Shown in pieces: positions 36-16,999 of a stretch of 64,000 nucleotides of DNA; within the stretch, counting starts at the first letter, position 1; each line of letters opens with the position of its first letter. The notes under the pieces are model-generated. The model did no database searches. It saw only the letters and a list, made by a program, of their open reading frames with translations, and had not been told where the DNA came from. Source of the stretch: Mariniblastus sp. (GTDB lineage: Bacteria; Planctomycetota; Planctomycetia; Pirellulales; Pirellulaceae). A program made the translations under genes and the position numbers. The stretch covers positions 1-64,000 of the forward strand of contig JAPKBL010000013.1 of the NCBI GenBank assembly GCA_028823415.1, read 5' to 3'.

Positions 36-114
36 ATTGTTCTTAATCGCAAGGTGCTGAAACGGATTCGATTGTTAAAGAGTTTTCTTGTTTATTTTGA
101 CCGGTTGGATAACT

Positions 115-896: not shown

Positions 897-2699
897 ATGA
901 AATTTGCTTGGATTACGGGACGTTTTTTACTAGCCGGGGTCGGCTTGCTTTTTGCCTTTGTTTCACTTGGGAGCAAGCAACCGGATTCCAGTTTGGTTGC
1001 CAGCAGATTAGCTGGGCGGATCGATGCTAGCGAAAATCTTCAAGCTGATGACAAAACTGCGGAAGACTTGGTGAAGGACTGGGAGAAACCGGAGTTCGTA
1101 CTTTTCATTTCGGGCCGTCAGCACGGCTATATCGAACCTTGTGGTTGCGTCACGCTTGCTCGACAAAAAGGCGGGCTGATGCGTCGTCATGCAGTTCAGA
1201 AAATATTGCAAGCGCGGGATTGGGATGTCGTTTCGATTGATGCGGGCAATCAAGTTCGAAGATTCGGGCAACAGCCATTAATTAAGATCCGAAAAACTTA
1301 TGAAGCGTTATGCGATCAAATGGGGTACGAATTTATTGGGCTTGGTCCCGATGATTTAAAGTTACCTGCGATTGATTTAGCTCAAACCATTGCCAATGTC
1401 GATAACGGGGCAAGCCCTTTCACCTGTGCCAACGTCAACCTGCTCGGAATGACTAACGATCATTTAATTGTCGAGAAGGGTGGAAAGCGAATTGGAATCA
1501 CGATGATTCTTGGTGACGAGCATCTTGAATCGATCAAGCAGGAACACGTTGAGACTCAAGCCGCTGCAGCTGGGTTAAAGAAGGTGATTCCAAAACTTGC
1601 CGATTGTGATTTCAAAGTGCTGGTTGCCTTTGCAGACTTGGAAGCAAGTCGAAAGTTAGCTAATCAATTTCCCGAATTTGATGTTTTGGTCACGGCTGGC
1701 GGATATGGTGATCCAACTTTACGTCCAGAGATAGTCACCGCTGCCGATGGGCATCAGACAGCGATTGTCCAAGTTGGCGTCAAGGGGATGCATGTGGGGC
1801 TGATTGGTTACTTCGAAAAGGATGGTAAATCTCGAATCGAGTATGAGCGGGTCGAGCTGACTGATCGATTTAAGGATTCCGATGAGATTAGAAAAGTCTT
1901 TAAGTCTTATCAGGATGAATTAAAGACTCTTTGGGAAACTGGTAATTTCAAGGACATTGTCGAGCGGGATCATCCCAGTGGAAATCAATTCGTTGGATCG
2001 AGCACTTGTGCAGACTGTCACGACGAAGAATATGCCATTTGGGAGGACGGTGCCGAGGGAGGTGGCGGCCCTCACGAAGAAGCGACGCGTGATTTAGAGT
2101 TGAATCCGAATGATGATCGAGTTTGGGTGCAACGACATTTTGATCCTGAATGTGTGAGTTGTCATGTTACCGGTTGGAATCCACAAGATTTTTATCCGTA
2201 CAAGACCGGTTATTCGAAACTGGCCGACGAAGATCTTCATGGAAACGGTTGTGAAAATTGTCATGGCCCAGGGTCAGCCCACGTTGCCATGGAAGAGTTG
2301 GTTGCCAAAGGGCAAGCGGTGGATCCCAAGGAACGGGTCCGTACGATACGAGAAATGTATCTCTCTGTTAGTGAGGCACGATTAAATTCGTGCAAAGAAT
2401 GCCACGATCTTGATAACAGCCCTGATTTTCTTAAAGAGGGAGCATTTGACGACTATTGGCCTCAGGTTGCGCATGGACGTCCTGCGATGGATAAGATTGA
2501 GGGATTGTTAAACTCGGTGTCGAAGGGGACGCGCCCGGTCGAGGCGCTTAGTTTAATCGAGGATTGGACTGCCGATCTTGGGGATCAAGAGCCTACCAAG
2601 GTTGCTGAGATCGAAGCGATGCTAAATGTTCTCAGTAAAAATCCGAACAAAGCACTGGAGATTGTTAACCAAACGCTTAAGGGGCTTGGGAAGCAGTAA
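897..2699 (+). CDS. metallophosphatase-like / tetraheme cytochrome c fusion protein
   Basis: About 600 residues with an N-terminal signal or anchor segment (residues 1-25), so it is exported. Residues about 60-340 resemble the calcineurin/5'-nucleotidase metallophosphatase fold: the ISGRQHGYIEPCGC entry, DAGNQ, and GLGPDDL in place of the usual GNHE. Residues about 365-510 resemble the cytochrome c554 domain and hold four CXXCH heme sites, CADCH (371), CVSCH (419), CENCH (452) and CKECH (499). A short helical tail follows. The start is the ATG at 897, directly before the hydrophobic segment. Proteins of this two-part type are known from planctomycetes but their reaction is not established. 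A periplasmic redox role is inferred from the hemes. The classical GNHE and downstream His motifs of active 5'-nucleotidases are not intact, so phosphatase activity is doubtful. Confidence 0.8.
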   Translation: MKFAWITGRFLLAGVGLLFAFVSLGSKQPDSSLVASRLAGRIDASENLQADDKTAEDLVKDWEKPEFVLFISGRQHGYIEPCGCVTLARQKGGLMRRHAVQKILQARDWDVVSIDAGNQVRRFGQQPLIKIRKTYEALCDQMGYEFIGLGPDDLKLPAIDLAQTIANVDNGASPFTCANVNLLGMTNDHLIVEKGGKRIGITMILGDEHLESIKQEHVETQAAAAGLKKVIPKLADCDFKVLVAFADLEASRKLANQFPEFDVLVTAGGYGDPTLRPEIVTAADGHQTAIVQVGVKGMHVGLIGYFEKDGKSRIEYERVELTDRFKDSDEIRKVFKSYQDELKTLWETGNFKDIVERDHPSGNQFVGSSTCADCHDEEYAIWEDGAEGGGGPHEEATRDLELNPNDDRVWVQRHFDPECVSCHVTGWNPQDFYPYKTGYSKLADEDLHGNGCENCHGPGSAHVAMEELVAKGQAVDPKERVRTIREMYLSVSEARLNSCKECHDLDNSPDFLKEGAFDDYWPQVAHGRPAMDKIEGLLNSVSKGTRPVEALSLIEDWTADLGDQEPTKVAEIEAMLNVLSKNPNKALEIVNQTLKGLGKQ

Positions 2700-2830
2700 T
2701 CTGAGTGCGCGCTTGGCGGATTGGAGTCATCGTTAGGGGTTGGATAACCGATGGAATAGGTTCCAAACTTGACGACCTGGCGGGTGCGGCCTACCTTAAG
2801 TATTGACGATTCCTAAACATTGAGGTCGCA

Positions 2831-3817
2831 ATGAACCCAAAACACATTGATTTTGTGCCGTCGAAACAAGCGAATAAAAAAATGTCCCGCCGGGATTTTG
2901 TGCATAGCTCTTCTGCTGCACTGATCTCTTCATCCGTTCTAGCCGGTGGTGCATTGGGTTGTGTTGGAGTTGCCAATGCTTCGACAAATGTGCTGGAGGC
3001 ATCGCTCGAGGGTCGAATCTACAAGACCTTGAAAATTGGAATGGTCAAGGTTTCAGGATCTTTAACCGAGAAATTTGCAGCTGCCAAAGAAGCTGGCTTT
3101 GCCGGAATTGAGATGAATTCACCGGGTATGGATGTGGCTGCGACTCGACTCGCAATAACTGAATCCGGATTGCCTGTAGACGGTACGGTTTGTTCCACGC
3201 ATTGGAATAAGACGCACACAAGTGCTGACAAAAAAGTTCGGGCGGAGGCTTTAAAAGACCTGCAAACTGCCATTCGCGATACCCATGCGGTGGGGGGTAA
3301 CACTGCGTTACTGGTTGTCGGACATGGGAAAGATGGTCCTGAAAGCGAAATTTGGCCGAGAGCGATTGAGAATATCTCGAAGGCTTTGCCGTTGTGTGCG
3401 GAACTGGGAGTTTATATCGCGATCGAGAATGTCTGGAATCATTTCTTATACGATCACGATGGAGACCATCTTCAGACGGCTGGTAAGTTTGTCAAGTTTG
3501 TCGATGACTTGAACTCGCCATGGGTGGGGATGCAGTTTGATATTGGGAACCATTGGAAATACGGAAGCATGGGTGACTGGATTCGTGCCTTGGGAAAACG
3601 CGTTGTCAAATTGGATCTAAAGGGGTATTCGCGAGCCAAGAAAAATTGGGTCAAGGAAATAGGAACCGGTGATATTGACTGGGTGGATGTTCGGAAGGCT
3701 TTGATCGAGATTGATTACTATGGTTGGGCTGCGGCAGAGGTCGGCGGTGGTGATCTGGCTCGTTTGAAGCAAATATCAGCCAATATGGACCGTGTTTTCG
3801 GGCTTTCGGTTAATTAA
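2831..3817 (+). CDS. Tat-exported sugar phosphate isomerase/epimerase-like protein
   Basis: 328 residues. A twin-arginine signal (SRRDF at residues 19-23, followed by a hydrophobic Ala/Ser-rich stretch ending in VANAS) sends the folded protein across the membrane. The mature part is a xylose-isomerase-like TIM barrel (AP_endonuc_2 superfamily): AIENVWNHF and MQFDIGNHW supply the expected metal-binding Glu and Asp, and the last strand holds WAAAEVGGGD. Planctomycetes encode many such secreted isomerase/epimerase-like proteins, often near DUF1080 proteins, and they are thought to act on sugars. The substrate here cannot be told. The ATG at 2831 has GAGG five bases upstream. The ATG at 2882, just before the Tat motif, is an alternative. 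A monocistronic gene is likely. Confidence 0.85.
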   Translation: MNPKHIDFVPSKQANKKMSRRDFVHSSSAALISSSVLAGGALGCVGVANASTNVLEASLEGRIYKTLKIGMVKVSGSLTEKFAAAKEAGFAGIEMNSPGMDVAATRLAITESGLPVDGTVCSTHWNKTHTSADKKVRAEALKDLQTAIRDTHAVGGNTALLVVGHGKDGPESEIWPRAIENISKALPLCAELGVYIAIENVWNHFLYDHDGDHLQTAGKFVKFVDDLNSPWVGMQFDIGNHWKYGSMGDWIRALGKRVVKLDLKGYSRAKKNWVKEIGTGDIDWVDVRKALIEIDYYGWAAAEVGGGDLARLKQISANMDRVFGLSVN

Positions 3818-4087
3818 GTTGATATATAATGCTTATTCCCGTGTTTTTAAGCAATGCAGCTCTTCGCAAAGCGAATGGGCAACTAGGTTCGACCTTGAGA
3901 ATATTTGAATTGCCATTCGGTGTTTTTGAGTTGAGCAATTAAAATGTATTTCTGCAAAAGATAGGCCACTGAGTAAGTCCCTCAAAATAGTAGGCCTTTA
4001 ATCGAAGTTGTCCTTTGGTTTTCGGCTCGCGACTCAAGAGTTTGGGAGCAAAGAAAACTCCAACTCATTGCCCCGTTATTATTTCTA

Positions 4088-5779
4088 ATGCCAGAATCGA
4101 AAATCCAAACAACCTCACAACCTGTCGATCTGACAGGGCAACAACTGGGCGATTACCAGTTGCTGCGGCGATTGGGTCGTGGTGGCATGGCGGATGTTTA
4201 CTTGGCCAAACAGGGATCACTTCGAAGAAATATCGCCCTCAAAATACTGAAACCGGATCTCGCGAAAGATGTTTCTTACGTTCAGCGATTTCAGCGCGAA
4301 GCACAAGCTGCCGCTAATCTGGTGCAGGCTAACATCGTGCAAATCTACGAGGTCGGTGAGGTTCAGGGGTTTCACTACATCGCCCAAGAATACGTTCAGG
4401 GGAGGAACCTTAAGCAGTATCTTAATCGTTATGGGGCAGTCGAATCGGTGATGGCGATCAATGTCATCCGGCAGTGTGCCCTTGCCTTGCAGAAGGCGGG
4501 TGAATTGCACGTCATTCATCGAGACATTAAGCCTGAAAATATCATGCTCTCGACCAAAGGCGAAGTGAAGATCACAGATTTTGGGTTGGCGCGAATCAAC
4601 AACAGTGCAGCGAAGCAGGCGTTGACATCGGTCGGCATTACGATGGGAACACCGTTGTATATGAGTCCGGAACAGGTCGAGGGATCAGCGATTGACCAGC
4701 GTTCGGATATCTACTCACTGGGAGTAACCGCCTACCACATACTTGCTGGGCATCCACCGTTTCAAGGTGATACTGCTTTGGTGATCGCGGTTCAGCATGT
4801 AAAAGACACGGCGACTCCACTGAATGAATTACGCCCGGATATCCCACTTGGGCTCTGTCAATTGATCGAAGAAATGATGGCGAAAAATCCATCCGATCGG
4901 GTTGATAGTGCAACTCAGTTGATCAAGAACTTGAGGCGAATCAAAATTGATCTCGACGAAGATTGGGAGATGATTGTCGAAAAATTGGCAACCTCCGAAC
5001 AATACGTCATGGAGAGTTCGATTGGTTGGAGCCAGGCGAAGCTTGAGGCAACTCGTCAATTGCAAACGGTAATGAAGGGTAATTTAAGGCCATGGTGGCG
5101 AAGCAGTGCTACCTTTGCAGCATTACTTTTGTTGTGCATTGTGGGAATGGCTGGTGGCTGGGTGTTAGCCACTCAAACGGTCCCTCCAGCTTTATTGAAT
5201 GTGGAGCAAATTGCTCAGAGCGATGTTCCCAAGATGAAAACAGCGGAGCAGCAATACACTGCAGCACAGATGGCAAGTGACCGATTCAGCAAAGTGCTTC
5301 AAGAGAAATATTGGCTTGCTGTGGAACAGAATTTTCCAATCGCAGAAGCCCCTATTAATGCAAAAAATAAACGAGAATTAATTGTTCGTCGATCGAAGGA
5401 GCGACTCGCGGAATTCTACATGAAGGATGGGCAATGGGATAACGCACTTTCTGTTTTTAATGAGTTTGTTCAGTACGATGAACTGCTTGGGAAAGAGTTT
5501 CGGGACATTGGCTATGCCGGGCAGGCGGTTGTCTTCGACGAGATGCCGGTGGAAGGATTTGAAGGCGGCGAAGAAGAGAGGGCGGCGAAAATCAGAACTG
5601 CAATCGGAAATGTCAAAACGACCTCGTCCCTGAACAGTCTAATGAAGTCTCTCTTTGAAAAGGTCAAAAAGAAAGTTGATCGGAGCTTGGATAGCTTTGA
5701 GGATTTAGATATTCCCAGCGAAATTAAAAACGACTCTTCTCGATTTCTGCAATTTTTTAGAATGAGTCAATTGTCTTAA
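4088..5779 (+). CDS. membrane-anchored serine/threonine protein kinase
   Basis: 563 residues. A Hanks-type kinase domain spans residues about 18-290: Gly-rich loop RLGRGGMADVY, lysine in NIALKIL, catalytic HRDIKPENIM (from about 143), DFGLAR, the APE-equivalent SPEQ, and YSLGVTAYHILAGHPPF. A single membrane segment lies at about 340-361, so the kinase domain is cytoplasmic and the last 200 residues are probably periplasmic. That C-terminal part is mostly helical and charged, with no recognised sensor domain, although it contains a TPR-like stretch (FYMKDGQWDNALSVFNEF). All key catalytic residues are present, so activity is expected. The partner is unknown. The gene converges with the M50-HlyD gene 124 bp downstream. 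Confidence 0.93.
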   Translation: MPESKIQTTSQPVDLTGQQLGDYQLLRRLGRGGMADVYLAKQGSLRRNIALKILKPDLAKDVSYVQRFQREAQAAANLVQANIVQIYEVGEVQGFHYIAQEYVQGRNLKQYLNRYGAVESVMAINVIRQCALALQKAGELHVIHRDIKPENIMLSTKGEVKITDFGLARINNSAAKQALTSVGITMGTPLYMSPEQVEGSAIDQRSDIYSLGVTAYHILAGHPPFQGDTALVIAVQHVKDTATPLNELRPDIPLGLCQLIEEMMAKNPSDRVDSATQLIKNLRRIKIDLDEDWEMIVEKLATSEQYVMESSIGWSQAKLEATRQLQTVMKGNLRPWWRSSATFAALLLLCIVGMAGGWVLATQTVPPALLNVEQIAQSDVPKMKTAEQQYTAAQMASDRFSKVLQEKYWLAVEQNFPIAEAPINAKNKRELIVRRSKERLAEFYMKDGQWDNALSVFNEFVQYDELLGKEFRDIGYAGQAVVFDEMPVEGFEGGEEERAAKIRTAIGNVKTTSSLNSLMKSLFEKVKKKVDRSLDSFEDLDIPSEIKNDSSRFLQFFRMSQLS

Positions 5780-5903
5780 GTGCTTGCCAGACGAGCGCGA
5801 TTAGTGACGGATTTGATTCCTCTTCCGGTCTGATTTCCCAATGCCGTGCGCGGCTAGAATAGTTAAATCCATCTGCGGTGAGGTTTGCAAGGCACGCCTT
5901 GAG

Positions 5904-8177
5904 TTAGGCTCTGAAGTTCTGGTTGAACCACCACCAAATTCGGTAGCCGATCGAACGATAGCCGGTGGACACGCGGGCTTGACCACCAATTCCGATTTTG
6001 GGCGCAATGGTTGCCGAATCGATTGGAACGCGGGCAAAATACTGAAAATCCTGATGTTGATAGCCTGCCACCATTTCAATGACCGGGTCGGGGGCACTGG
6101 AGTTATTTCCACCCATCGAGGGTTGCATTAGATCGTAGTCTTCCCGGTTGATCGCAACATCAGTCTCGCCAATCCATTCAATTTTAGAGTGGTAGGTATG
6201 GCCTGGATCTGAGTACAGTTTTATTTTCGTAGATTGATCAAGTTTCACAAATTTAACTTGATGCTCGGTCAAAATAACGATGGCGTACCATTTTGAAAGA
6301 TCGGCAATTTCACAAAACCGTTGTCCCCGCTGGGCGGAAACATTGTTGTGCTGGCCGTAAAGTAAGGGTCGCATATCAAAGTCTTCTGTTTCCGCCGATT
6401 GTTGTCCCGAATGTTGATAAGGTGTTGCCAAAACGGTGCCGGCGATATTGCTTTTAAGTGTTAGACTTGCGGCGCGTTCAGAAAGTTGAGAGTAGTTCTT
6501 TTTAAGTTTCGCGATATCGGCAAGGATAGATTTGGTCGGATCATTGGGTGTCGGTTGGGCGAGGTTTCGCTTTGCGATTTCTAATTTGAGGGCCGCCTCT
6601 TTTTCTTGAATCTTTCCCTCTGCGGTTATCAGTTGCATTTCGAGCTCTAAGTTTTTGAGCTGTGCCAGGGTTTGACCGGCCGCAACGGACTCTCCAGGGC
6701 TGACCTCGAATGATTCCAGCAATCCAGATTCTTTAACCCAGACGGTTTCTATTTCACTGGGCATCACGATCAGATTGCAACGCAATGTATGGGGGAGTGG
6801 AATAAACAAGATGAACGCAAGCACGAAGCCTGCGACTCCTAAGACAACAAAAAATCTAACTTTTTTCACTTGATGCATTCGTCCGGGAACCGCCATGTAT
6901 TTGTACAGTTTGTAGCCGGGCATTCCGAGCATGCCGACCATGGAAAATAGAGCAATCCCAATTCCGATGGATTCAAGATTGTAAGGTTCTAGCATTTTCG
7001 TCAAAAAGACAATGATCGAAAGCATGATGAACCAGCGATAGCAAAATGCTGCCACAGTAAACATGGCAAAGGCCCACGGTCGATTCGAGGGCATGAGTTG
7101 GTCGTCGGGAATTTCTAATCCCAGCCAATTTCGACCCAGAAGGGTCGTCAACGCTTTGGTCGATTTCTGATTGAGGTTGGGGATTTCGAGAATGTCACTA
7201 AGGATGTAGTATCCGTCAAAACGGAGTAGCGGGTTACCATTGAAAAGAATGGTACTGATGGAACTGACCAGCATGACTCGGAGGCAAACGTCTTGGACGA
7301 GTCCTGGCTGGACAAACCACCAGACAAAAGTCGCTAGCGTAGCGAGGATGATTTCTACATACATACCCGCCGCCCCGATCGCGGCGCGGTGCCACTTGTT
7401 GGGAAGCCGCCAGCTGTCGGAAACGTTGCAATAGAGACAGGGCGTCAGAACCAGAAGCATGAAACCAATTTCGTGGCATTCCCCCCCTAAACGTTTGCAG
7501 GCAAGGCCATGTCCAAACTCATGGAATATTTTCGTAACGCCAAGAACGATTCCGAACAGGTACCATTGTTTGGGGTCGAAAAAGGCGTCGAAACCGGGGA
7601 GTTTTGCCTGGAACAGACTCCAGTTCATCACTACCGACAACAAGGCAATGGCGGCACAAAACAATGTAATCCACATCGCAATCTTGGTGAAAATCCACCA
7701 AGTGTAGGGAAGCAGCCAATTTAGAATTCGCTCGGGATCAAATCCCTTGTAGCGAATTGCCAAAACATTGGAATAGGTTCCTACCCGTTCCATCATTTTG
7801 TTCTTATTGCCTCGCTTGAGGAGTTCGGCACCCTGCCCCGGAACGCTCGAAGTTACGAGGCTGTCTTGATGGAACCGAGTTAGCAATTGCTGAAGGTCCT
7901 GCCGCGTGATTCGCTTGGGGGCAAATTTTTCGTGGTAGCCATCCTGAAGCTCGTCAATTGATTTTTTTCCATCGAGTTCCTGCAGCAGGTGAAACACATG
8001 GGGAGGGAACTGAAAGTACTTTTGGCCAAGCGGTTCTTTAATAACCCAGTACTCAACGCCTTGATAGGTCATGCGATCGAACGTTAGGTCCGAACGCATT
8101 TTCATTTGAATGGGCGGACTACTCGGAGGCGGGGTATGCCTGGCCGGTGGATCGGAGGGAGGCGGGATGATCGACAT
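5904..8177 (-). CDS. PqqD-like / site-2 protease M50 / HlyD-like membrane protein
   Basis: 757 residues. Residues about 30-115 resemble a PqqD/RiPP-recognition fold (EYWVIKEPLGQKYFQF, then HLLQELDGKKSIDEL). The middle is a polytopic membrane zinc protease of family M50, with HEFGH at about 217-221 and the third metal ligand in LLRFDGYYIL near 317. The C-terminal third carries one more membrane segment, then a lipoyl/barrel-sandwich and coiled-coil HlyD adaptor (VWVKESGLLESFEVSPGESV). Related proteins are annotated as putative peptide zinc metalloproteases (YydH type). It begins 9 bp after the GAF-HlyD gene and is surely co-transcribed with it. An export or maturation role for a peptide or protein is inferred. 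Substrate unknown. Confidence 0.88.
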   Translation of the reverse strand: MSIIPPPSDPPARHTPPPSSPPIQMKMRSDLTFDRMTYQGVEYWVIKEPLGQKYFQFPPHVFHLLQELDGKKSIDELQDGYHEKFAPKRITRQDLQQLLTRFHQDSLVTSSVPGQGAELLKRGNKNKMMERVGTYSNVLAIRYKGFDPERILNWLLPYTWWIFTKIAMWITLFCAAIALLSVVMNWSLFQAKLPGFDAFFDPKQWYLFGIVLGVTKIFHEFGHGLACKRLGGECHEIGFMLLVLTPCLYCNVSDSWRLPNKWHRAAIGAAGMYVEIILATLATFVWWFVQPGLVQDVCLRVMLVSSISTILFNGNPLLRFDGYYILSDILEIPNLNQKSTKALTTLLGRNWLGLEIPDDQLMPSNRPWAFAMFTVAAFCYRWFIMLSIIVFLTKMLEPYNLESIGIGIALFSMVGMLGMPGYKLYKYMAVPGRMHQVKKVRFFVVLGVAGFVLAFILFIPLPHTLRCNLIVMPSEIETVWVKESGLLESFEVSPGESVAAGQTLAQLKNLELEMQLITAEGKIQEKEAALKLEIAKRNLAQPTPNDPTKSILADIAKLKKNYSQLSERAASLTLKSNIAGTVLATPYQHSGQQSAETEDFDMRPLLYGQHNNVSAQRGQRFCEIADLSKWYAIVILTEHQVKFVKLDQSTKIKLYSDPGHTYHSKIEWIGETDVAINREDYDLMQPSMGGNNSSAPDPVIEMVAGYQHQDFQYFARVPIDSATIAPKIGIGGQARVSTGYRSIGYRIWWWFNQNFRA

Positions 8178-8186
8178 CGCAACCTC

Positions 8187-10271
8187 TTAAAAGAATACTT
8201 TGGTTCGGAGGAAATCATAGATCTGATAGAAACATACGAATCCAAGTGATCGTGTTCCACAGCGAATTTTTGCCGTCGCCCCGGCACCACTGCGAAGTTC
8301 GTTATGGAGGTCGGCGAGTTGCGAAGATTCGATTTCTACGAAAGCTCGAAATTCTGGTGCACCTTCTGCCGTCGGCACTCCTCGGTCGTCAATCGCGATT
8401 TTTGCGAGCGTACCCTTGAGGTTTAGATTTGGGTTGGTGCCAATTTTAAATTCTACATCAAGTAATTTACCTGGGTCTTTGGCAAATGCTTGATCTACAT
8501 AGGTCATTTTGTTTTGTGGAATTTTAAGTTCCAGTTGCCATTGTCCTTCGAGATCAACGACTTCGAGTAACGCCATATTGGAAACCGTAGGGAAATCCGT
8601 ATACCGCCGTTTTAAGCGAGGCGTCGTGACGGTGCCGTCGATTGGACTTACGATTTCATGTTGGCTTTGTTTGAACATCATCAGTTCAAGCTTGGACGAG
8701 AGAGTTTTACGTTGCTTTTTAAAGAGATCGATCGCCATGCCAATTTCGGCACTTTCCGAAGGATCTTTGAGGCCGCTGGCCAATTGGGAGTTGGCATTGT
8801 CAATTTGATGATTGATCGATTCGATTTCATATTCAGCCGAGCTGATTTGCATCTCTAGATCTTGGTTTTCAAGACGCAGCAACGGCTGACCCTTTTTTAC
8901 TTTCGCTCGTTCATCAATCAAAATTTCTCGGATAATGCCGTCGGTTTGTGCGTAAATGGTGTTTCGAATCGTCGGATGCATTACCCCGTCGATTTTCATT
9001 TTGAGTTCTTTGGGAAAGAACAGCATGACAAGGATTAAGATGCCCAACGCGACAAGACCGGTGTTGGTTTTAGCGCGATGATCGCGAAATAAGACCTGTT
9101 GTAACCAGCCGAGGCGTTGCCAAACTGGCAGTAAGAATATTTCACTGTGTTTCCTGGCATTTTCTAACGCAATTTCCGACTGGCCGACAATTAGTTGAGT
9201 GTCGAATTCAATTTCGTTTTCGGGAACGTCAGTGTCAAAGTACTCGAGAATTAAGACACCGAGTTTTTGTGAAACCTGCTGTTGGTGGCTTTTCATTTCC
9301 AAGTCCGGCAATGCCTGGGCACGCGCCAACAATGGAATCACGATCAGAGTCCGACTGTGGGATTCATCGAGATAGTCGTTGATTTTTAGAGCGACTTCGG
9401 GTGCGATTCCGTCTGTGCTGCCGGTGATCCAAAACGTTGACTCGGCACTCACACTGGCCGTCGCAACGGCCGAAAGCAAGCGAACGACATTGGAACGGTT
9501 ATCGAAACGATCTTGGCTGCTAATCGCCGAGATTTTGCATTTGGTGCCATCCCATTGCCCGACACTGACTCGATCGCAATTGAGTAAACGTCGCGCTTCG
9601 TTGGCAATGGCATACGAAGTGTCAATCGTGTCGATCGAGCGATGAGTTTCGTTAATGAACTCGAGTCGGTTAGTCCATGAGTCAGTCGAGAGTGTCTTGA
9701 CGACCTGATTTTGTTCCTCTTCTTGCTCCTCATGCCAGCGCTGAAACAACTGCGATATTTGAGAAAGGAACCTTAGATAACCTTCCTGTGCCTGAGGCGA
9801 AATGTCACCTCGTTGCAATAGTTCCAGCGTTCCGCAGCATTTCTTGGTCCGGTTATAGACCGGAGAAAAAAGCATGAGGAATGATTCATCCCGTTGGCTG
9901 TTGGTGTCATCCTGAGGGCTTGGTGCCTTAGTGAATGAGTCCGACGTCAGTCCCATCGGTCGCTCTTTGGTGACCACTTCCATGACTGCGTCGCTGTGTT
10001 GCGAATTCTCTTGAGACAAAACCTCTGTGGCATTTGCGTTGGGATGACGGCCGGTTTGGTGAGTCAGTTGCGGCGTCTTGTTACCGTTGACCTGCCACAG
10101 CAACGCCCCGTGAGCTCCCGTTATCTTGACAACGCGGTTGAGGACCGTATCGCAGAACTGGTCAAAGTCCTTTTCCGTACTCGCCATTTCATTCAACTGC
10201 TGAACCGTGCGGCGAACTTCATCGCGAATGGCAGAAGGGGATGGGTTGTTTTGTTGTTCGCCAGTGGACAT
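8187..10271 (-). CDS. GAF-GAF-TM-HlyD adaptor protein
   Basis: 694 residues. Two GAF-like domains (about 15-185 and 205-390) form a cytoplasmic N-terminal half, followed by one membrane segment (about 401-419, rich in Leu/Ile/Val). The C-terminal half is a periplasmic HlyD/membrane-fusion adaptor: a lipoyl half-motif (IYAQTDGIIREILIDE), a coiled-coil hairpin, the second half-motif (IVSPIDGTVTTPRLKRRY) and a beta-barrel region. Ordinary HlyD adaptors have only a short cytoplasmic tail, so the double GAF is unusual and suggests ligand sensing coupled to export. It lies between the SecA-like gene (193 bp upstream) and the PqqD-M50-HlyD gene (9 bp downstream). No ABC or RND pump is encoded beside it. 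Confidence 0.88.
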   Translation of the reverse strand: MSTGEQQNNPSPSAIRDEVRRTVQQLNEMASTEKDFDQFCDTVLNRVVKITGAHGALLWQVNGNKTPQLTHQTGRHPNANATEVLSQENSQHSDAVMEVVTKERPMGLTSDSFTKAPSPQDDTNSQRDESFLMLFSPVYNRTKKCCGTLELLQRGDISPQAQEGYLRFLSQISQLFQRWHEEQEEEQNQVVKTLSTDSWTNRLEFINETHRSIDTIDTSYAIANEARRLLNCDRVSVGQWDGTKCKISAISSQDRFDNRSNVVRLLSAVATASVSAESTFWITGSTDGIAPEVALKINDYLDESHSRTLIVIPLLARAQALPDLEMKSHQQQVSQKLGVLILEYFDTDVPENEIEFDTQLIVGQSEIALENARKHSEIFLLPVWQRLGWLQQVLFRDHRAKTNTGLVALGILILVMLFFPKELKMKIDGVMHPTIRNTIYAQTDGIIREILIDERAKVKKGQPLLRLENQDLEMQISSAEYEIESINHQIDNANSQLASGLKDPSESAEIGMAIDLFKKQRKTLSSKLELMMFKQSQHEIVSPIDGTVTTPRLKRRYTDFPTVSNMALLEVVDLEGQWQLELKIPQNKMTYVDQAFAKDPGKLLDVEFKIGTNPNLNLKGTLAKIAIDDRGVPTAEGAPEFRAFVEIESSQLADLHNELRSGAGATAKIRCGTRSLGFVCFYQIYDFLRTKVFF

Positions 10272-10464
10272 GATTGATTTAATTTACCGTCGACGGAAAA
10301 ATGGAAGGGCGTTAACTAATTGTAGATTGCAGTTCTCGGTAGGAAATAGCGACGCAGCGGCGAAGGGCGAATGGAAAAGGTGTAGGCGGTGTCGCGATGA
10401 GGTAGTGACGAAGGCTGGATTGGCTCAATTAAAGGAAGTTGCGACGTCTTTCAAAAAAAGCAGA

Positions 10465-12558
10465 TTAATCGAAGTTGTCGAGAATCGGATCGAGTCCCAT
10501 TTCTCTTTGTGATTTGGCCAGCATCTTTTCATTATACATGAGTATGCGCCGCGAACGGTAATGTTGGTTCTCAACCTTTTGCTGTGCGCGGTTAAAAAGC
10601 GAGATCCAATATGAACTTGTGCGGGTTTTGCCGGTCCTCCGGTACCTTTCCGCGGTTTGCTTACCGAATGCAGATTCCAATATCTTATCTTCGGCTGCGA
10701 TATAGAGTTGAACCGAGCCGGGATCGCCCTGCCGACCGCAGCGTCCAAATAGTTGTTGATCAATCCGACTAGATTCGTGCATTTCGGTACCAATGACATG
10801 CATTCCGCCGAGTGTCAGAATCTGCTCGCGATCGGTTGCATCTTCGGATTCTCCTCCGATTTTAATATCGGTACCTCGGCCAGCCATGTTGGTGGCGACG
10901 GTGATTTTCCCCACTTCTCCTGCGGTCGCAATAATCTCCGCCTCACGCTCAATTTCTCTCGCGTTGAGGACTTCGTGCTCGATTTGATTTTGTCTAAGCA
11001 GATGGGAGACCTGTTCCGATTTCGCGATCGAGCGGGTGCCGATCAAAATGGGGCGGCCCGCCCGATGGATTTCAATCACGTCGCGAACCACCGCATCGAA
11101 TTTTTCCTGTTCAGAAAAGTAGTACTTGATCGGAAGGTCGAGACGTTGAATGGGTTGGTCGGTCGGAATGATCGAGACCCCCATGTGATAGATTTTTTTA
11201 AATTCTTTCTTTGATGAGTTGGCGGTTCCTGTCATCCCAGCAATATTCGGATAGCGGCTCACGAAAGACTGAACCGTGATTTTAGCTTGTGTGTTGGTAT
11301 CCATGGTGACTTCGACGGATTCATTGGCTTCGATGGCTTGGTGGATTCCTTTGCTCCATCGACGACCCTCTGAAATTCGGCCAGTGGCCTCGTCGACGAT
11401 AACGATTTCGCCATCGCGGACAACATAATCTCGATCCCGTTTGTAATCCCTATCGACCTGAATAGAGCGTTCGAGGAAGTCATACATTTCTAATAGCCCG
11501 ATGCCCGCTAACTCTTCGGGCTTAGAGATGGTGCGGACTCTTGCTGTTCCTTCGGGAGTGAGGTCAACACTTCGTTTTTCTTTATCGTACCAATAGTCGA
11601 TGTCTTCTTCGAATTGCCGTGCTGCATTGGCCGACCATTGGTAGAGGGATGTTTGTTGCTGCTTCGTCGATTCATCCTGCGCGGCGGAGATAATCAACGG
11701 CGTCCGGGCATCGTCAATCAAAATGCTATCGGCTTCATCGATCAGTAAGAAATGAGGTTTGCGGTGAACTGGTTTTGAAGCTGCTGACTCTGCTACGCCG
11801 GCTTGGCTACCACCGTACCAAAGCTCCCGCTGTTTTTGTTCTCGTTCTTGAGAGTGGTCGCGGAGGAAATCAAATCCAAACTCCTTCATCGTTCCGTAGG
11901 TAATGTTGCACTGATAAGCTGCCCTTCTCTGCTCGCGTGACATGTCAGATTGAATCACGCCGATGGTCATGCCAAGCGAATGGTAGACAGGTTGCATCCA
12001 TTCGGCATCTCGTTTGGCGAGGTAGTCGTTGCTCGTTGCCAGTAAAGCGCCTCGACCGGCGAGTGCGTGAACAAACATGGGAAGCGTTGCTGTCAGCGTT
12101 TTTCCTTCCCCGGTACGCATCTCAGCGACGTGGCCGCTGCACATCGCCTGCCCCCCCAAAAGCTGGACATCGTAGTGCTGCATATTTAATTGTCGCTGCG
12201 AGGCAACCTGAACCAAGGCAAAGGCCCGTTCAAGAAGTCCGTCGACGGAGTCGGTTTGGCGAGATTCAAAGCCAAGATTTAGCGCAATATCCGCAAGTTC
12301 CTTGTCAGACTGATCTCCGTACTGAGCAGCGAGTGATTTGATATGAGTGAGGACGGAACCAAATTTCACGGTATTGATCGGGATAAATGGGGGATTGGCT
12401 GATTTTTCTTCAATTGAAGTCGTGCAGGCGATGCGGGCGACAACCCTCAGTTTAACAACAAATGAAATCGTAATTTCTCTAAATATAGACAAGCCCTGGA
12501 GTTTGTGGGCGGTTTCAGGCAACGGATTCGTTAATGTCGGTTCGATCGTAACATCCAA
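10465..12558 (-). CDS. truncated SecA-like (accessory) preprotein translocase ATPase
   Basis: Up to 697 residues. The DEAD motor is complete: Walker A in RTGEGKT (about 148), LLIDEADSILIDDART, the GMTGTA motif, GRGTDI and FGRCGRQGDPGS. A preprotein-crosslinking segment between the two halves is recognisable. The protein stops soon after the second motor domain, near the first helix of the helical scaffold. It therefore lacks the helical wing, two-helix finger and SEC-C tail of the full SecA encoded at 35795-39490. The first 63 residues do not look like SecA. A GTG at 12369 (V64) may be the true start. It heads the HlyD/M50 block, which suggests a dedicated, non-housekeeping role. Conventional translocation by this protein alone is doubtful. 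Confidence 0.88.
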   Translation of the reverse strand: MDVTIEPTLTNPLPETAHKLQGLSIFREITISFVVKLRVVARIACTTSIEEKSANPPFIPINTVKFGSVLTHIKSLAAQYGDQSDKELADIALNLGFESRQTDSVDGLLERAFALVQVASQRQLNMQHYDVQLLGGQAMCSGHVAEMRTGEGKTLTATLPMFVHALAGRGALLATSNDYLAKRDAEWMQPVYHSLGMTIGVIQSDMSREQRRAAYQCNITYGTMKEFGFDFLRDHSQEREQKQRELWYGGSQAGVAESAASKPVHRKPHFLLIDEADSILIDDARTPLIISAAQDESTKQQQTSLYQWSANAARQFEEDIDYWYDKEKRSVDLTPEGTARVRTISKPEELAGIGLLEMYDFLERSIQVDRDYKRDRDYVVRDGEIVIVDEATGRISEGRRWSKGIHQAIEANESVEVTMDTNTQAKITVQSFVSRYPNIAGMTGTANSSKKEFKKIYHMGVSIIPTDQPIQRLDLPIKYYFSEQEKFDAVVRDVIEIHRAGRPILIGTRSIAKSEQVSHLLRQNQIEHEVLNAREIEREAEIIATAGEVGKITVATNMAGRGTDIKIGGESEDATDREQILTLGGMHVIGTEMHESSRIDQQLFGRCGRQGDPGSVQLYIAAEDKILESAFGKQTAERYRRTGKTRTSSYWISLFNRAQQKVENQHYRSRRILMYNEKMLAKSQREMGLDPILDNFD

Positions 12559-12582
12559 TGGGCGAAGGGCGCTTGTTGGATG

Positions 12583-12597
12583 CTAGCGATTCGCTAG
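12583..12597. promoter_or_regulatory. 15-bp palindrome between divergent genes
   Basis: CTAGCGA-T-TCGCTAG is a perfect inverted repeat with a single central base. It lies in the 187-bp divergent spacer, 25 bp upstream of the longest possible start of the SecA-like gene and about 150 bp before the rightward conserved hypothetical gene. Its length and symmetry would suit a dimeric regulator's operator. No promoter boxes could be assigned with confidence. Confidence 0.35.
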
Positions 12598-12745
12598 TTG
12601 CAGATTGCTTTGTCCGCGGTGAAATCGATCATGTCTTGAGAGCATTTGGGAAAAGCTCTAGTATTCCGAACCAATTTTTATTGGCCTGAAGCGACATGAA
12701 ATGGAATGGCGCCGAATGGTTGATGTGTGATTTACGGTGACTTTT

Positions 12746-13279
12746 ATGCTCAATTTTGAATTCAAAAAGAGTAGCCGGAAATGCTATCAGAGCGACAAGG
12801 AGTTCAAACCGGGAGACGGTTTTTATTCCACCTTGCTGGAGTGCGAGGGAGGGCAGACCGAACGACGAGATTACGCTTCGGACCAGTGGGAGGGACCTCC
12901 TGAGAATTGCATCGGATGGTGGAAGTCCAGCGTGCCGGAGTTGGGAAAGGGACGCGTTTATTGGGCTCCTAAAAAAGTGCTGATTGCCTATTTTGAACAT
13001 CTCCAAGCGAGTGAGCAAACGGCAGACATCGCTTTTGTCACGGGTTTGTTATTGATGCAAAAAAAAATATTAACACAACTGGACAGCGAGCTTGGGGAGC
13101 CGGCTATAGAGTTACATTGTCGATCCACAAATACAACTTATCCGCTGTCTGTTGTCGATATTAGTCCGGAACGACTCGCGGCAATACAACAAGAGCTTGC
13201 CGAAAAATTGTTTGTAGACCAACCGTTTTCGGGTGACATAGAAAGCGAAGAAGCTAACGGGGAAGTAAATTCAGAGTGA
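12746..13279 (+). CDS. conserved planctomycete hypothetical protein
   Basis: 177 residues from the ATG at 12746 (a GTG three codons upstream is possible). The sequence has a recognisable phylum-level pattern: an N-terminal Cys followed by KEFKPGDGFYSTLLE, then RRDYASDQWEGPPENCIGWW, and WAPKKVLIAYFEHL with a helical C-terminal half. I know similar proteins only as uncharacterised planctomycete families. No signal peptide or membrane segment is seen. Its stop codon overlaps a GTG that opens the downstream frame (GTGA at 13276-13279), so the two genes are probably translated as a unit. Confidence 0.75.
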   Translation: MLNFEFKKSSRKCYQSDKEFKPGDGFYSTLLECEGGQTERRDYASDQWEGPPENCIGWWKSSVPELGKGRVYWAPKKVLIAYFEHLQASEQTADIAFVTGLLLMQKKILTQLDSELGEPAIELHCRSTNTTYPLSVVDISPERLAAIQQELAEKLFVDQPFSGDIESEEANGEVNSE

Positions 13280-13359
13280 GAGATTTAGGCTTTCAGGAAA
13301 AGAATTTGGGATTTAAAACGACAGATTGTTCAATTGCGATAGATTACGTTTTCCCATTC

Positions 13360-14322
13360 ATGAGGATTCGAAAGTTGAAATTGTCAATGTCCTTCTTGGC
13401 GACGCTGTTCTTCATGAGCATTGCCGCGCATACCTCCTGCGCTCAAATTTTTGACAATTTCGGATTTGATCTGTTTAAGCCTAAGCGTGGAGTTTTCGCG
13501 GCGAAGTTAAAGTTGCCAACGCAGGTAGAGTTGTTGAAAAGGCAAAAATCCCGAGCGGAGTTGGCTAAACAGCTTCAGGCAAATGTCACTGTGAAAATGA
13601 CGGGTGTTCCGAAGATTAAAGGAACGATTCAGGTCGAGTTTCCAGATCGACTTCGTTTGAAAGCTGGTTTTCTGGGGCTCTCCGAATATGGAGTTGATGT
13701 CGGTTCTAATACGGAACTTTTCTGGATATGGATGAAGGCTTCAACCAGAGAGCAGCCGGAAGTCATGTATTATGCTGAACACGACGATTACGATCGAAGT
13801 GCCATGCGGTTATCGATCCCTTTGGATCCCAAATGGCTGCTCGACGGTTTAGGTTTGAGTCAATTCAGTCCGCAAGATCGGCACACTGGTCCTTATTCTC
13901 GGGCGGATGGCAAAATTGAATTATTGACTGAAAAGCAAACGTCTGCCGGAATTCAGAGGGTGATTACCTTATTTGATGAGCAATCTTTTGTGATTGTGCA
14001 ACAGGCTTTGTACAACTCGCAAGATAAGCTCGTGGCCTATATGAACTCTTCTGACCATCAGACGATCGATGCAAAAGATCGGACGATTGAAGTGCCGCGG
14101 AAAATTGAAATATTTATGGTTCAGGGAAATGGCGAAACTACGGGAATATCGATTCAACTTGGACGAATTTCTTTGGATCCCCTGTATGGTGATCCTAAAA
14201 AAATGTGGAGTTTGCCGCGAGCCGATGGCGTGGCGAAGGTAAATCTCGCCTCAGAATTGTCGATGCCCACACCCAAACTTAAGGCTACCTCGGGTAATTC
14301 GGGATGGAAATTTCAGGATTAG
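13360..14322 (+). CDS. secreted LolA/LppX-like hypothetical protein
   Basis: About 320 residues with a signal peptide (positive MRIRKLK, hydrophobic core, cleavage near TSCAQ). After cleavage the chain is beta-rich: VTVKMTGVPKIKGTIQVEFPD followed by RLKAGFLGLSEYGVDVG resembles the half-barrel fold of LolA/LppX outer-membrane lipoprotein carriers, but similarity is weak and inferred by pattern only. I place the start at the ATG at 13360 because it fits the signal peptide. A GTG at 13276, overlapping the previous stop and preceded by GGGGAAG, would add 28 residues ahead of it. The pairing with the upstream conserved gene suggests a shared envelope-related job. Function unknown. Confidence 0.7.
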   Translation: MRIRKLKLSMSFLATLFFMSIAAHTSCAQIFDNFGFDLFKPKRGVFAAKLKLPTQVELLKRQKSRAELAKQLQANVTVKMTGVPKIKGTIQVEFPDRLRLKAGFLGLSEYGVDVGSNTELFWIWMKASTREQPEVMYYAEHDDYDRSAMRLSIPLDPKWLLDGLGLSQFSPQDRHTGPYSRADGKIELLTEKQTSAGIQRVITLFDEQSFVIVQQALYNSQDKLVAYMNSSDHQTIDAKDRTIEVPRKIEIFMVQGNGETTGISIQLGRISLDPLYGDPKKMWSLPRADGVAKVNLASELSMPTPKLKATSGNSGWKFQD

Positions 14323-14402
14323 TTGATCGAGAGGGCAAAGTGTTCATTCGTGGAACATCGGAGGAGACGGTACCTTCGGCAAAGATTTACTAACTCCGTG
14401 TC

Positions 14403-14431
14403 TTGACACTGTTTTTGAAGAGAATTACGAT
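14403..14431 (+). promoter_or_regulatory. sigma70-type promoter of the ferredoxin gene
   Basis: TTGACA (14403-14408), a 17-bp spacer and TACGAT (14426-14431) form a near-consensus housekeeping promoter about 140 bp before the ferredoxin start. No other gene lies between. Confidence 0.6.
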
Positions 14432-14442
14432 TTTTCGTAATT
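14423..14442. promoter_or_regulatory. inverted repeat over the -10 box of the ferredoxin promoter
   Basis: AATTACGA-TTTT-TCGTAATT is a perfect 8-bp inverted repeat that covers the -10 box and the expected transcription start. It may be an operator, or it may form a hairpin at the very 5' end of the transcript that protects the mRNA. Confidence 0.45.
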
Positions 14443-14568
14443 GTTGGTTTTTCAACACGTATTTTACCGATATCAAATGGTGGCTAGTTTTTATTTTTCA
14501 TTGATCGCCTAAACACCCATCCATATTGAAAATTAGTCGGATCACGATCCGAAGACAGGAGTACTGAA

Positions 14569-14850
14569 ATGACACATGTTGTGGGAAATGCTTGCGACGG
14601 TTGCCGTTACACTGATTGCGTTGTTGTCTGCCCCGTGGAATGTTTCTACGAAGGTGAGACCATGTTGTACATTCATCCCGACGAGTGCATTGATTGCGAA
14701 GCATGTGTGCCCGAGTGCCCGGTGGAGGCAATCTTTCACGAAGACGACCTTCCCGAAGATCAAAAAGAGTACGTTCAGATTAACGCAGATCAGTCTGAGA
14801 CGTGCGAAGTGATTACCGAGCGGAAAGAGCCGCTGAAAAAAGAAGATTAA
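14569..14850 (+). CDS. fdxA: 7Fe ferredoxin (FdxA type)
   Basis: 93 residues, a soluble electron carrier. The cysteine spacing matches Azotobacter-type 7Fe ferredoxins: C9, C17 and C50 for a [3Fe-4S] cluster, and C21, C40, C43 and C46 for a [4Fe-4S] cluster, with the extra C12 and C25 also seen in that family. Motifs are [17 protein letters not shown] and [12 protein letters not shown]. An acidic tail follows. AGGAG sits seven bases before the ATG, one of the few clear ribosome sites in the window. The gene is monocistronic, with its own promoter (14403-14431) and terminator (14881-14909). The redox partner cannot be told from the neighbours. Confidence 0.93.
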
Positions 14851-14880
14851 ATTTTCGTTCAAGAATCGAGAGTTTTGAAA

Positions 14881-14909
14881 GCCGGCACTTTTTGTGACCG
14901 GCCTTTTTA
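14881..14909 (+). terminator. rho-independent terminator after the ferredoxin gene
   Basis: GCCGGCAC, a short T-rich loop and GTGACCGGC form a G/C-rich stem with one bulge, followed by CTTTTTAT. It begins 30 bp after the ferredoxin stop. Confidence 0.8.
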
Positions 14910-14981
14910 TTGGTATCCGATAGCCGTTTAGAATTCTTTGGAGATTAGCGATCGCTATTTCCCAACGTGATCACCATTTGG

Positions 14982-16841
14982 TTAACGCCTCTTGGCAGGC
15001 TCTTTTTGACCCAGGATTTCACTTGGCGTCTTTCCGTAGGTCGCTTTAAATGAGCTCTCAAACGAATGGCTTTTGCTGATGGACTTCATCAATCGTGCGA
15101 ATGATCCAGAATCCGATCTGAGCTTTTTTACAAACAAATACCCTACCAATGCGGCGCGATCGGAGGGCATTCGGTTCTGAATGAAATCATCAGGTTTTAC
15201 CATGTCAGCCATGGCCGACTCGGCCCGCATATCCAGCGATTTCATCGAATCCTCATTCGAGAATATCTTTTTAGCGGTCCACAGCCCAAGTCCATCTGCG
15301 AACCAGCGTGGCATATCCAAAGCAAGGTTTGCGACATGAAGGGATGCAATTTGATGCGCTAGGGCGACCTGTACATCTTCGGCTGATTGGCTGCGGGTCA
15401 TCAAGACGGTAGCGTATGCGTCGGTGATATTGTATCCCCAGTGTCCAGAGACGTCTTTTGGGAAATCTCGTTTCTCGATCATCTTTCCGAATTCACTAAA
15501 ATCATAGCGCTTATCGAAAACAAATACCGACGTATTTCCTTTCACGAGTGGTGTTTTGGAATTAGCGCGCAGCGCACTTGCGATTTTCGGCGCCATTTTC
15601 TCACAGAGCTGAGAAATGTCAGTCAGTCGACTTTCGTTGGTCGAACCGGTAACAAGAAAATTATCACTGGGAAGGACTTTGCTTTGGACACTATCCATGA
15701 CCAGTTTCCAGGTACGGGTCGCAAGATCGCCTCGGTCGGCTAATAGTTCTTCGTGGGTCTGTGATGCCGCTTTGGACCGAGCGACCACCATCGACGTTAC
15801 TAACCGGCTATCTCCACCGTCAAACGCTGCACCCTCATCAATCCACTTGGCAATCGTATCGATCAGTTTATCGTCAAGTTTTCCTGAGGGCGGCATGATT
15901 TCGACTCCATCTCCCCGCAAACGCTTGATGATTTGGCTTTCACCGGATTTTTTTGCTTCGATTGGTGTACCGCCATCACCGCCTCGCAGGATTTCACGGA
16001 AGCTTGCCATGCTGAAGTTTCCCCGAGGACGGTCGGTGATGTGGCAGCGAGCGCAGTTTTCAAGCAGGATCGGAGCGACATGCAGCCCGAAGGAAACGGT
16101 TTCTTTACCTGTTGGTAGATTGACGGTTGCGTTTCGCCTTGGTTGAGCAGGCGGCGGTGTGGTCGCGAATTCATTGAGGCTCTTTTTGGGATCATCGCCA
16201 TCAAATTTTGCGCCCTGTTGCATCCAGTCTCGCAGTAATTTCAATTCTTCTGGCGTTACCTTGGCTCCGTTTTTTGGCATTTCGCCGCTCTCAATTACCT
16301 GAATTAATCGAGCGTCATTAGGCAGACCGTAGGCGAGTGTGGTGCTGGCATCGAGAGCCGAAAACGTCGCTGCACTGAAATCACCTCGTTTCTGGTTCAC
16401 GTGGCAATTGCCACATTTGGCAACGATAATCGGTGCGATCGATTTTACGAAACTCACGGCCGCGGCGTCGCCATTGGTCGGTTGTGGGAGAGGTTGCATG
16501 GCCGTCAGTTTTTGCCCAGCATCACTTAGTAGCTTGTGAGCTTTTTCAAGCCGCGTAAATTCTGGTTTGAGTAATTCGATAACTTCAGGAGAGGCTTTCG
16601 CGGAGACGGCGGCCATTTGCGCAATGGCTTGATTAATGTATTGCCCGCTGGCGTCAAATTTATTGGCTTTGAATTGCTTGCCGGCGCGATCAATATTGGT
16701 TTTGATTTGTTTGACGGCCTGCTTTTGTTTGGGAGTCGGCGCTTGGCCGAAGGAGTTCGTTGTTATAAATAAAGCCAACACTGCAAGTGTTAATCGAACG
16801 ATCAAAGTCGCCTTTGTTGAACTGTGGCTAAGTATCTTCAT
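14982..16841 (-). CDS. secreted diheme PSCyt1 cytochrome with a degenerate DUF1570-like peptidase domain
   Basis: About 619 residues from the ATG at 16841, which directly precedes a signal peptide (hydrophobic core, cleavage near NSFGQ). A helical segment follows, then two planctomycete cytochrome domains with CGNCH (about 141) and CARCH (about 262). Each has the downstream MP-x-G pattern (GEMPKNG, EIMPPSG) that would supply the Met ligand. The last 200 residues resemble the DUF1570/peptidase-MA gluzincin fold (LALDMPRWFADGLGLW), but the metal motif reads HQIAS instead of HExxH and the downstream Glu is Asp. The domain is probably not an active protease. A start at 16937 would bury the signal peptide and is unlikely. 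Confidence 0.8.
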   Translation of the reverse strand: MKILSHSSTKATLIVRLTLAVLALFITTNSFGQAPTPKQKQAVKQIKTNIDRAGKQFKANKFDASGQYINQAIAQMAAVSAKASPEVIELLKPEFTRLEKAHKLLSDAGQKLTAMQPLPQPTNGDAAAVSFVKSIAPIIVAKCGNCHVNQKRGDFSAATFSALDASTTLAYGLPNDARLIQVIESGEMPKNGAKVTPEELKLLRDWMQQGAKFDGDDPKKSLNEFATTPPPAQPRRNATVNLPTGKETVSFGLHVAPILLENCARCHITDRPRGNFSMASFREILRGGDGGTPIEAKKSGESQIIKRLRGDGVEIMPPSGKLDDKLIDTIAKWIDEGAAFDGGDSRLVTSMVVARSKAASQTHEELLADRGDLATRTWKLVMDSVQSKVLPSDNFLVTGSTNESRLTDISQLCEKMAPKIASALRANSKTPLVKGNTSVFVFDKRYDFSEFGKMIEKRDFPKDVSGHWGYNITDAYATVLMTRSQSAEDVQVALAHQIASLHVANLALDMPRWFADGLGLWTAKKIFSNEDSMKSLDMRAESAMADMVKPDDFIQNRMPSDRAALVGYLFVKKLRSDSGSFARLMKSISKSHSFESSFKATYGKTPSEILGQKEPAKRR

Positions 16842-16999
16842 TTGCTTGTCTCGGATATTCTGGTGATCTGTATTACGAATTTTTTCGGCGGACGAGTGGA
16901 TAGCTAAATCTGAGCGAGCATTGAAAGACTCACGCAAAACCTAAACTATTTTTTCTAAACAACTTCAACTCTGATGAAAGCGTATGGCCGTGGGGGTGT

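Follow-up and report, generated by a model that had tools for sequence, protein, structure and literature searches.

A conserved short SecA, GAF-HlyD and PqqD-M50-HlyD cassette as a candidate export module for giant LEPR-XLL proteins

The closest described counterpart of the genes analyzed here was reported by Kamneva, Poudel and Ward, the text of whose paper describes a secondary SecA_DEAD protein without SecA_SW that is linked to M50-HlyD and GAF-HlyD genes, with a gene for an outer membrane efflux protein (OEP) sometimes nearby (Kamneva et al., 2015; PMC4452313). There, the SecA was proposed to act as the ATPase and the M50 protein as the pore, lateral transfer of the locus was inferred, Methylobacterium extorquens AM1 was named as a carrier, with the operon META1p2402-2399, and the broader role of the module was called "completely unknown" (PMC4452313). 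By term search, the main text of that paper makes no mention of PqqD, LEPR or a giant protein, and it names no substrate. In the open-licence PMC literature, i.e., outside preprints, we found no subsequent description of the module and none of how LEPR proteins are exported. Here we analyzed a cassette of this kind in a 64,000-nucleotide stretch of Mariniblastus sp. (Planctomycetota; assembly GCA_028823415.1, contig JAPKBL010000013.1, positions 1 to 64,000), hereafter called the window. Genome comparison leads us to propose that its three genes probably form a SecA-powered, type I-like module that exports very large LEPR-XLL (LExR-x-LL-S-A) surface or extracellular proteins.

The open reading frame (ORF) list of the window confirmed three co-directional ORFs on the minus strand. 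In order of transcription, these encode a short SecA (10465..12558; 697 aa from a TTG start), a periplasmic adaptor composed of two GAF domains, a transmembrane helix and HlyD (8187..10271; 694 aa), and a PqqD-like domain followed by an intramembrane M50 protease and a HlyD adaptor (5904..8177; 757 aa), with gaps of 193 bp and then 9 bp. Assignments were based on Pfam for all three proteins, on alignment and a tree for the SecA, on structure models and Foldseek for the other two, and additionally on sequence profiles for the M50 protein. The trio given in a preliminary description of this DNA was borne out by the ORFs and the domain evidence; the remark made there that such parts are not usually seen together was not, the module having been published in 2015 (PMC4452313). 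In its domains and gene company the locus corresponds to that module, with a short SecA ("secondary SecA_DEAD protein") beside a housekeeping SecA and with linked M50-HlyD and GAF-HlyD genes, and we regard the trio as a further member of it because the arrangement had already been described (Kamneva et al., 2015).

To characterize the linkage, loci were collected by searching one genome per species with 19 aligned M50 proteins, and the best 80 of at least 589 confirmed stretches were analyzed. In 70 of the 80 loci the M50 gene was closely followed, in the same direction, by a SecA-like gene, a figure that describes a subfamily and not M50-HlyD proteins at large because the loci were ranked by similarity to one SecA-linked protein. 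The SecA frame started within 123 bp of the end of the M50 match in 68 of these 70 loci and was complete in 68 (645-843 aa from stop to stop in 67, 1436 aa in L154); the SecA match of L124 was weak. Seven of the ten unlinked loci were contig ends with less than 800 bp beyond M50, and L086, L094 and L144 had 2.6-10 kb of downstream DNA with no SecA-like gene. ORF picking yielded an intact HlyD ORF of its own in 44/80 loci, too low a figure since genes in GC-rich DNA escape the picker, and OEP-like sequence was found within the locus in 15/80. The SecA gene stands at the head of the cassette in the window and in L036, a relative of it, and behind M50 in the 70 linked loci. Chance, or a rare arrangement, was rejected as an explanation, given SecA beside M50 in 70/80 loci and a module already in print. 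For SecA and M50, homologues were thus linked and not scattered, the alternative raised in the preliminary description, with a looser picture in planctomycetes, where linkage was seen in 17/29 genomes having both genes. The loci came from Planctomycetota, Verrucomicrobiota, Kiritimatiellae, Spirochaetales, Elusimicrobia, Nitrospirota, Fibrobacter, Omnitrophota and Rokubacteria as well as from alpha-, beta-, gamma- and deltaproteobacteria. Beyond the phyla in the title of Kamneva et al. (2015), linked loci were found here in Spirochaetales, Elusimicrobia, Fibrobacter, Kiritimatiellae and Rokubacteria, while the Omnitrophota locus (L144) was without a linked SecA.

The evidence for the nature of the cargo comes from the distribution of LEPR genes. 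Among 199 planctomycete genomes, 46 were scored as M50-positive (best E<=7.3e-21, out of 56 at E<=1e-3). The NCBIfam LEPR-XLL model NF012209, for which counts here and below refer to the matches listed, exceeded its cut-off in 22/46 M50-positive versus 3/153 other planctomycetes (Fisher p 1e-13). With a relaxed profile, A7, built from 42 of 56 collected leader pieces, the figures were 28/46 and 4/153; A7 counts are partly circular because this profile includes leaders picked near cassettes, which does not apply to NF012209. In a second sample, the class of Dyella (229 genomes centred on Dyella sp. OK004), LEPR genes were found in 15/16 genomes with a strong M50 match versus 8/213 others (p 6e-17), and in 14/15 when the centre genome was left out; these Fisher tests assume independent genomes, which related genomes are not. 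Three of the eight LEPR genomes outside the strong-M50 group had a weaker M50 relative and five had none. Among 14 named controls, seven matched at E<=1 and one exceeded the cut-off in the matches listed; Deinobacterium chartae alone matched at E<=0.1, and none did at E<=0.02.

LEPR genes were also found close to the cassette. Fifty of the 80 named loci, representing 49 genomes, were used for this comparison; 41/49 genomes had a LEPR match over the cut-off, and in 17/49 a LEPR gene lay within 10 kb of M50, when about 1.5 would be expected for a 15-kb gene placed at random. Seven genomes of the class of Dyella likewise had a LEPR gene close to M50. ORFs starting with the LEPR motif adjoined the cassette in L037, L051, L114, L131, L134, L144 and L150, that of L051 giving a near-cut-off match to NF012209. 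The LEPR gene of L134 (Massilia sp. Leaf139), which directly adjoins the cassette, spans 11,426 codons. The preliminary description had advised looking for a co-occurring giant surface-protein gene, and LEPR genes proved to be overrepresented both in genomes with the cassette and in its vicinity. In a variant order, the LEPR gene followed M50 by 0.5-1.6 kb (G233:C10, G328:C11 and G453:C42); in G328 the SecA was on another contig, and otherwise none was seen among the matches listed.

Within the M50-positive planctomycetes, LEPR genes tracked the short SecA. A short SecA was present in 29/46 of these genomes, and NF012209 was over its cut-off in 19/29 of them versus 3/17 of those without a short SecA (p 0.002), the corresponding A7 counts being 25/29 and 3/17. 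For this scoring, G173 was counted as lacking a short SecA owing to its long tail (321 residues after the motif of the second nucleotide-binding domain, NBD2), G051 and G037, in which the motif pattern was unmatched, were counted as short by frame length (651 and 663 aa), and the 29 include G030, a 24% match. Where a short SecA was not linked to M50, a LExR protein was encoded no more than 4 kb from it in 5/12 loci (L199, L200, L201, L205 and L207). No short SecA was found in 46 M50-negative planctomycetes, hand-picked and hence non-random, out of 153: the second SecA of G016 (831 aa) extended 236 residues past the NBD2 motif, the one, cut SecA of G129 extended 306, and G113 and G150 gave no SecA match. 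In the class of Dyella, at least 12 of the 16 strong-M50 genomes had a short SecA, and 11 of those 12 had LEPR.

The short SecA of the window matched the Pfam families SecA_DEAD (2.9e-97), P-loop_SecA (5e-59) and SecA_PP_bind (4e-29), with no Pfam match to SecA_SW. It consists of NBD1, the preprotein cross-linking domain (PPXD) and NBD2, followed by just the beginning of the scaffold helix and no C-tail, and the motifs GEGKT (Walker A), DEAD, AGRGTD and GRCGRQGDPG are all intact. SecA_SW comprises the scaffold and wing, and the two-helix finger sits in the same part of SecA. In an alignment of 27 linked short SecAs with the housekeeping SecA of the window, the short SecA ended soon after NBD2, and the 27 homologues also lacked SecA_SW, judged by where the alignment ends. 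The tail after the NBD2 motif was 71-90 residues in short SecAs, and 28 linked SecAs trimmed to a start codon were 641-735 aa long. The start codon of the window protein is uncertain (TTG at 12558 or a later TTG or GTG), homology beginning at residue 65. Two SecA_DEAD proteins exceeded the cut-off in the window genome, both of them inside the window. The second, the housekeeping SecA, is a 1231-aa protein encoded at 35795-39490 on the minus strand, 23 kb from the short SecA. It is longer than the SecAs of several other lineages in the SecA tree (868-960 aa), and its length fits the SecA_SW rearrangement reported for Planctomycetes (Kamneva et al., 2015; PMC4452313).

By maximum likelihood, 33 short and 19 housekeeping SecAs were split by one branch with 100/100 support in an unrooted tree (n=52), in which the short SecAs of the window and of its nearest relative, G121, grouped together (99/84). 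The tree included no SecA2 outgroup and contained two short-SecA rows with very long branches. Recent truncation of the organism's own SecA was rejected on the basis of the 100/100 branch. As in SecA2 accessory systems, a housekeeping SecA is accompanied by another SecA whose motor motifs are intact. Among solved structures, the short SecA gave its best sequence matches to SecA2 chains (6sxh and 6t4h). It differs, however, in lacking SecA_SW and in being encoded with HlyD and M50 proteins, and four NCBIfam SecA2 models matched it below their cut-offs, as did the NCBIfam SecA models.

In the M50 protein, Pfam detected Peptidase_M50 (4e-7; 30 bits, cut-off 27.2) and, just below the cut-off of 30, HlyD_D23 (1.6e-6; 28 bits). 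The protease motifs HEFGH (219) and NGNPLLRFDG (313) are intact, and H219, E220, H223, N313, N315, P316, L317 and D321 were invariant in 39/39 aligned M50 proteins. A structure model (predicted local distance difference test, pLDDT, 80; predicted template modelling score, pTM, 0.63) showed a small N-terminal beta/alpha domain, a membrane part and an adaptor, with the PqqD-like region at about 20-115 and the HlyD adaptor at about 460-757. By Foldseek, the adaptor resembled MacA/MexA/AcrA; such adaptors filled the 50 rows shown, and no PqqD chain was among them, so the PqqD assignment draws on sequence profiles and model topology. The Pfam PqqD family PF05402 did not match the window protein even at E<=1. 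It did match 30/39 aligned members at that threshold (best 4e-7), and the solved PqqD 3g2b was matched at 5e-4 by a profile built from 29 N-terminal regions, among them that of the window protein. The PqqD domain claimed in the preliminary description is therefore upheld through relatives and the 3g2b match and not through a match of the window protein itself to PF05402. Recognition of a PqqD domain in this module, which is drawn from sequence comparison, appears to be part of what is new here.

The M50 region also invites comparison with the intramembrane M50 proteases of daptide and epipeptide systems (NF041824 and NF058609), which belong to the ribosomally synthesized and post-translationally modified peptides (RiPPs). 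NF041824 covered residues 42-419, including most of the PqqD-like region, at 5e-52, a match that at 177.3 of 300 bits is below the equivalog cut-off. Unlike those proteases, the window protein carries a HlyD adaptor, and its candidate cargo would be giant proteins, not small peptides. Two more M50-HlyD paralogues without an adjoining SecA are encoded in the same genome, at G000:C164:33745-35955 (L034) and at G000:C153:2410-3945 (L035), the latter with a HlyD gene upstream.

The GAF-HlyD protein matched the Pfam families GAF (6e-10) and HlyD_3 (8e-6; 27 bits, cut-off 22.2), with no Pfam match to a first GAF domain. Its model (pLDDT 77, pTM 0.38, weakest around residues 60-130) showed two alpha/beta domains linked by long helices ahead of a single membrane helix (about 400-420), and then a MexA/MacA-type adaptor with an alpha-hairpin. 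Foldseek returned MacA/MexA/AcrA (best E 7e-14); adaptors took up the 50 rows shown, in which no GAF chain appeared. Of the double GAF put forward in the preliminary description, the second domain is identified by Pfam, while for the first we have the model and a GAF_2 match, below the cut-off, at 31-160 of the relative L040. At least a weak GAF match was present in 9/10 HlyD partners scanned, L089 having none.

LEPR open frames reach 14,390 aa. From 60 LEPR loci scanned, 41 leaders were obtained, in which a core like E-x-L-E-P-R-[LIV]-L-L-S-A follows 3 to over 70 residues. The leader was net positive in 33/41. Mean hydropathy over 11 residues exceeded 2 in just 2/41, leaving 39/41 without a Sec-like core by this simple window and with starts taken as the first ATG of the frame, which may be wrong; most leaders therefore do not resemble Sec signals. 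In the window genome (5.45 Mb in 265 contigs), three NF012209 matches were over the cut-off among those listed and five proteins were found with A7, four of whose leaders are themselves in A7; leader variants include LEDR and MEQR. Four LEPR-type proteins of this genome carry DUF4347, SdrD_B, cadherin-like, CBM96, laminin-G-like and reprolysin domains. In 5 of 15 giant ORFs (L125, L135, L146, L154 and L155), an [IV]DW motif occurs within 150 residues of the C-terminus; this recurring motif is possibly a second sorting element.

The following sequence of events best accounts for the gene content, linkage, catalytic motifs, domain folds and association with LEPR genes. In the cytoplasm, the PqqD domain carried by the M50 protein would capture the LEPR leader, a role suggested because the PqqD fold binds leader peptides in RiPP systems. 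The short SecA would push the chain across the inner membrane, while passage through the periplasm would be by a conduit of the two HlyD adaptor domains and a TolC-type OEP, whose gene may adjoin the cassette or lie elsewhere. Cleavage of the leader may fall to the M50 site, and the GAF domains could gate the adaptor on a cytoplasmic signal. These comparisons support an export or maturation system as put forward in the preliminary description, with SecA as the likely motor and PqqD as the likely leader reader. As to this genome in particular, co-occurrence and proximity across cassette genomes suggest that the cargo is probably of the LEPR type. A more specific scheme, which we put forward tentatively as a possibility, is one-step export independent of SecY, in which a SecA without scaffold, wing and finger replaces an ABC (ATP-binding cassette) transporter, PqqD reads the LEPR leader, the M50 protein acts as both channel and leader peptidase, and HlyD and OEP form the conduit.

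Several observations weigh against export of LEPR proteins by the cassette. No inner-membrane channel was identified, although no search for a second SecY was made, and the model is the product of genome comparison. No listed LEPR-type match in the window genome falls on the window contig (C29), and the cargo is therefore assigned by analogy. Not every M50-positive or cassette genome has a LEPR match: 24/46 M50-positive planctomycetes had no NF012209 match over the cut-off among those listed (18/46 with A7), nor did 10/29 of those with a short SecA, and 8/49 cassette genomes had no LEPR match among those listed. Conversely, LEPR occurred without M50 in 3/25 (NF012209) or 4/32 (A7) LEPR genomes of the planctomycetes, and 5/23 LEPR genomes of the gammaproteobacterial sample had no M50 match, strong or weak. 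The control Deinobacterium chartae, in which the cassette was not searched for, has LEPR over the cut-off. Lastly, 11/15 loci examined had RTX-type GGxGxD motifs in the giant ORF lying upstream (its start being beyond the fetched flank for nearly all), and such motifs would also fit an ordinary ABC-driven type I route.

The alternative that survives best, although we consider it unlikely, is export in two steps, with SecYEG carrying the protein across the inner membrane, the short SecA serving as a SecA2-like accessory, and the HlyD and M50 proteins acting only in the periplasm, at the outer membrane or in maturation. Retention of both NBDs and the PPXD, the sequence matches to SecA2 chains and the SecA2-only systems that use the canonical translocase, as covered in PMC4452313, are all in keeping with this. 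It is difficult to reconcile, however, with the absence of SecA_SW from the window protein and its 27 linked homologues, with leaders that mostly lack a Sec-like hydrophobic core, and with the well-supported branch that sets the short SecAs apart from housekeeping ones.

Less probable still is ordinary ABC-driven type I export in which LEPR is an N-terminal retention anchor and the cassette processes, releases or senses the retained protein. LapA-type adhesins have such an N-terminal retention anchor. The RTX-type motifs of the upstream giant ORFs point in this direction, as do the RTX and serralysin domains that the text of PMC10868602 reports at the C-terminus of a LEPR-XLL protein (about 8000 aa) from Vibrio VB16. 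This explanation leaves unaccounted for, however, the cassette's own ATPase and two adaptors and the tracking of LEPR with the short SecA (19/29 versus 3/17). The proposed module does share with type I secretion (HlyB/HlyD/TolC) its HlyD-type adaptors and large repeat proteins as probable cargo, and may share the use of an OEP. It differs in that the cassette has no ABC transporter, so that the SecA-like motor would energize transport, and in that the proposed signal is N-terminal. Type I signals are usually C-terminal. As noted in the preliminary description, neither an ABC nor a resistance-nodulation-division (RND) pump was found among the ten ORFs scanned with Pfam (window 88-18454); a LolD/FtsX-like pair, judged by eye, lies 36 kb from the cassette (48592-52811). 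The absence of a TolC-like gene likewise holds for the cassette's neighbours and not genome-wide, where three OEP genes are present, one of them 254 bp from a LEPR-type protein gene (L196) and transcribed away from it.

We give least credence to a general exporter or regulatory M50/GAF module with other substrates, linked to LEPR through shared lifestyle or island co-transfer: M50-HlyD without a confirmed short SecA is common (17/46 planctomycetes), L043 and L046 place M50-HlyD in the vicinity of large ORFs that on visual inspection resemble surface proteins and have no NCBIfam match, and lateral transfer was inferred in PMC4452313, but the LEPR association repeats in two separate samples and extends to the neighbourhood (17/49 genomes versus 1.5 expected). 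The ORFs neighbouring L043 and L046 include some of 1836-2004 aa with kinase similarity in addition to other large ORFs, and branches of this type may serve a different protein class.

Around the cassette, two ORFs of 180 and 348 aa with no Pfam match lie upstream on the opposite strand (12737-14322, plus strand), and a Ser/Thr kinase-like gene is located at 4088-5779 (plus strand). A kinase-like gene was also seen near the cassette or short SecA in L043, L046, L103, L204, L207 and L210, which may be due to chance because planctomycetes have many such kinases. Scans for promoters and terminators were unrevealing, with five promoter-like sites versus 7.1 expected and 12 terminator-like sites versus 9.4 expected.

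Relative to what is in print, the new elements are a strong, repeated genomic link to LEPR-XLL giants and the recognition of PqqD, which together suggest a testable function for the module. LEPR-XLL is a named entry of a domain library for whose proteins our text searches gave no account of export, and the module, published in 2015, has gone without an assigned role; if the proposal is true, both gaps would close. In the one-step scheme, chains as long as about 14,000 residues would be threaded through the HlyD-OEP conduit, which would give LEPR-XLL proteins an export route in several phyla. The proposal would also entail a new use of SecA, i.e., driving a HlyD/OEP conduit, which could be tested directly in tractable non-pathogens, one being Methylobacterium extorquens AM1.

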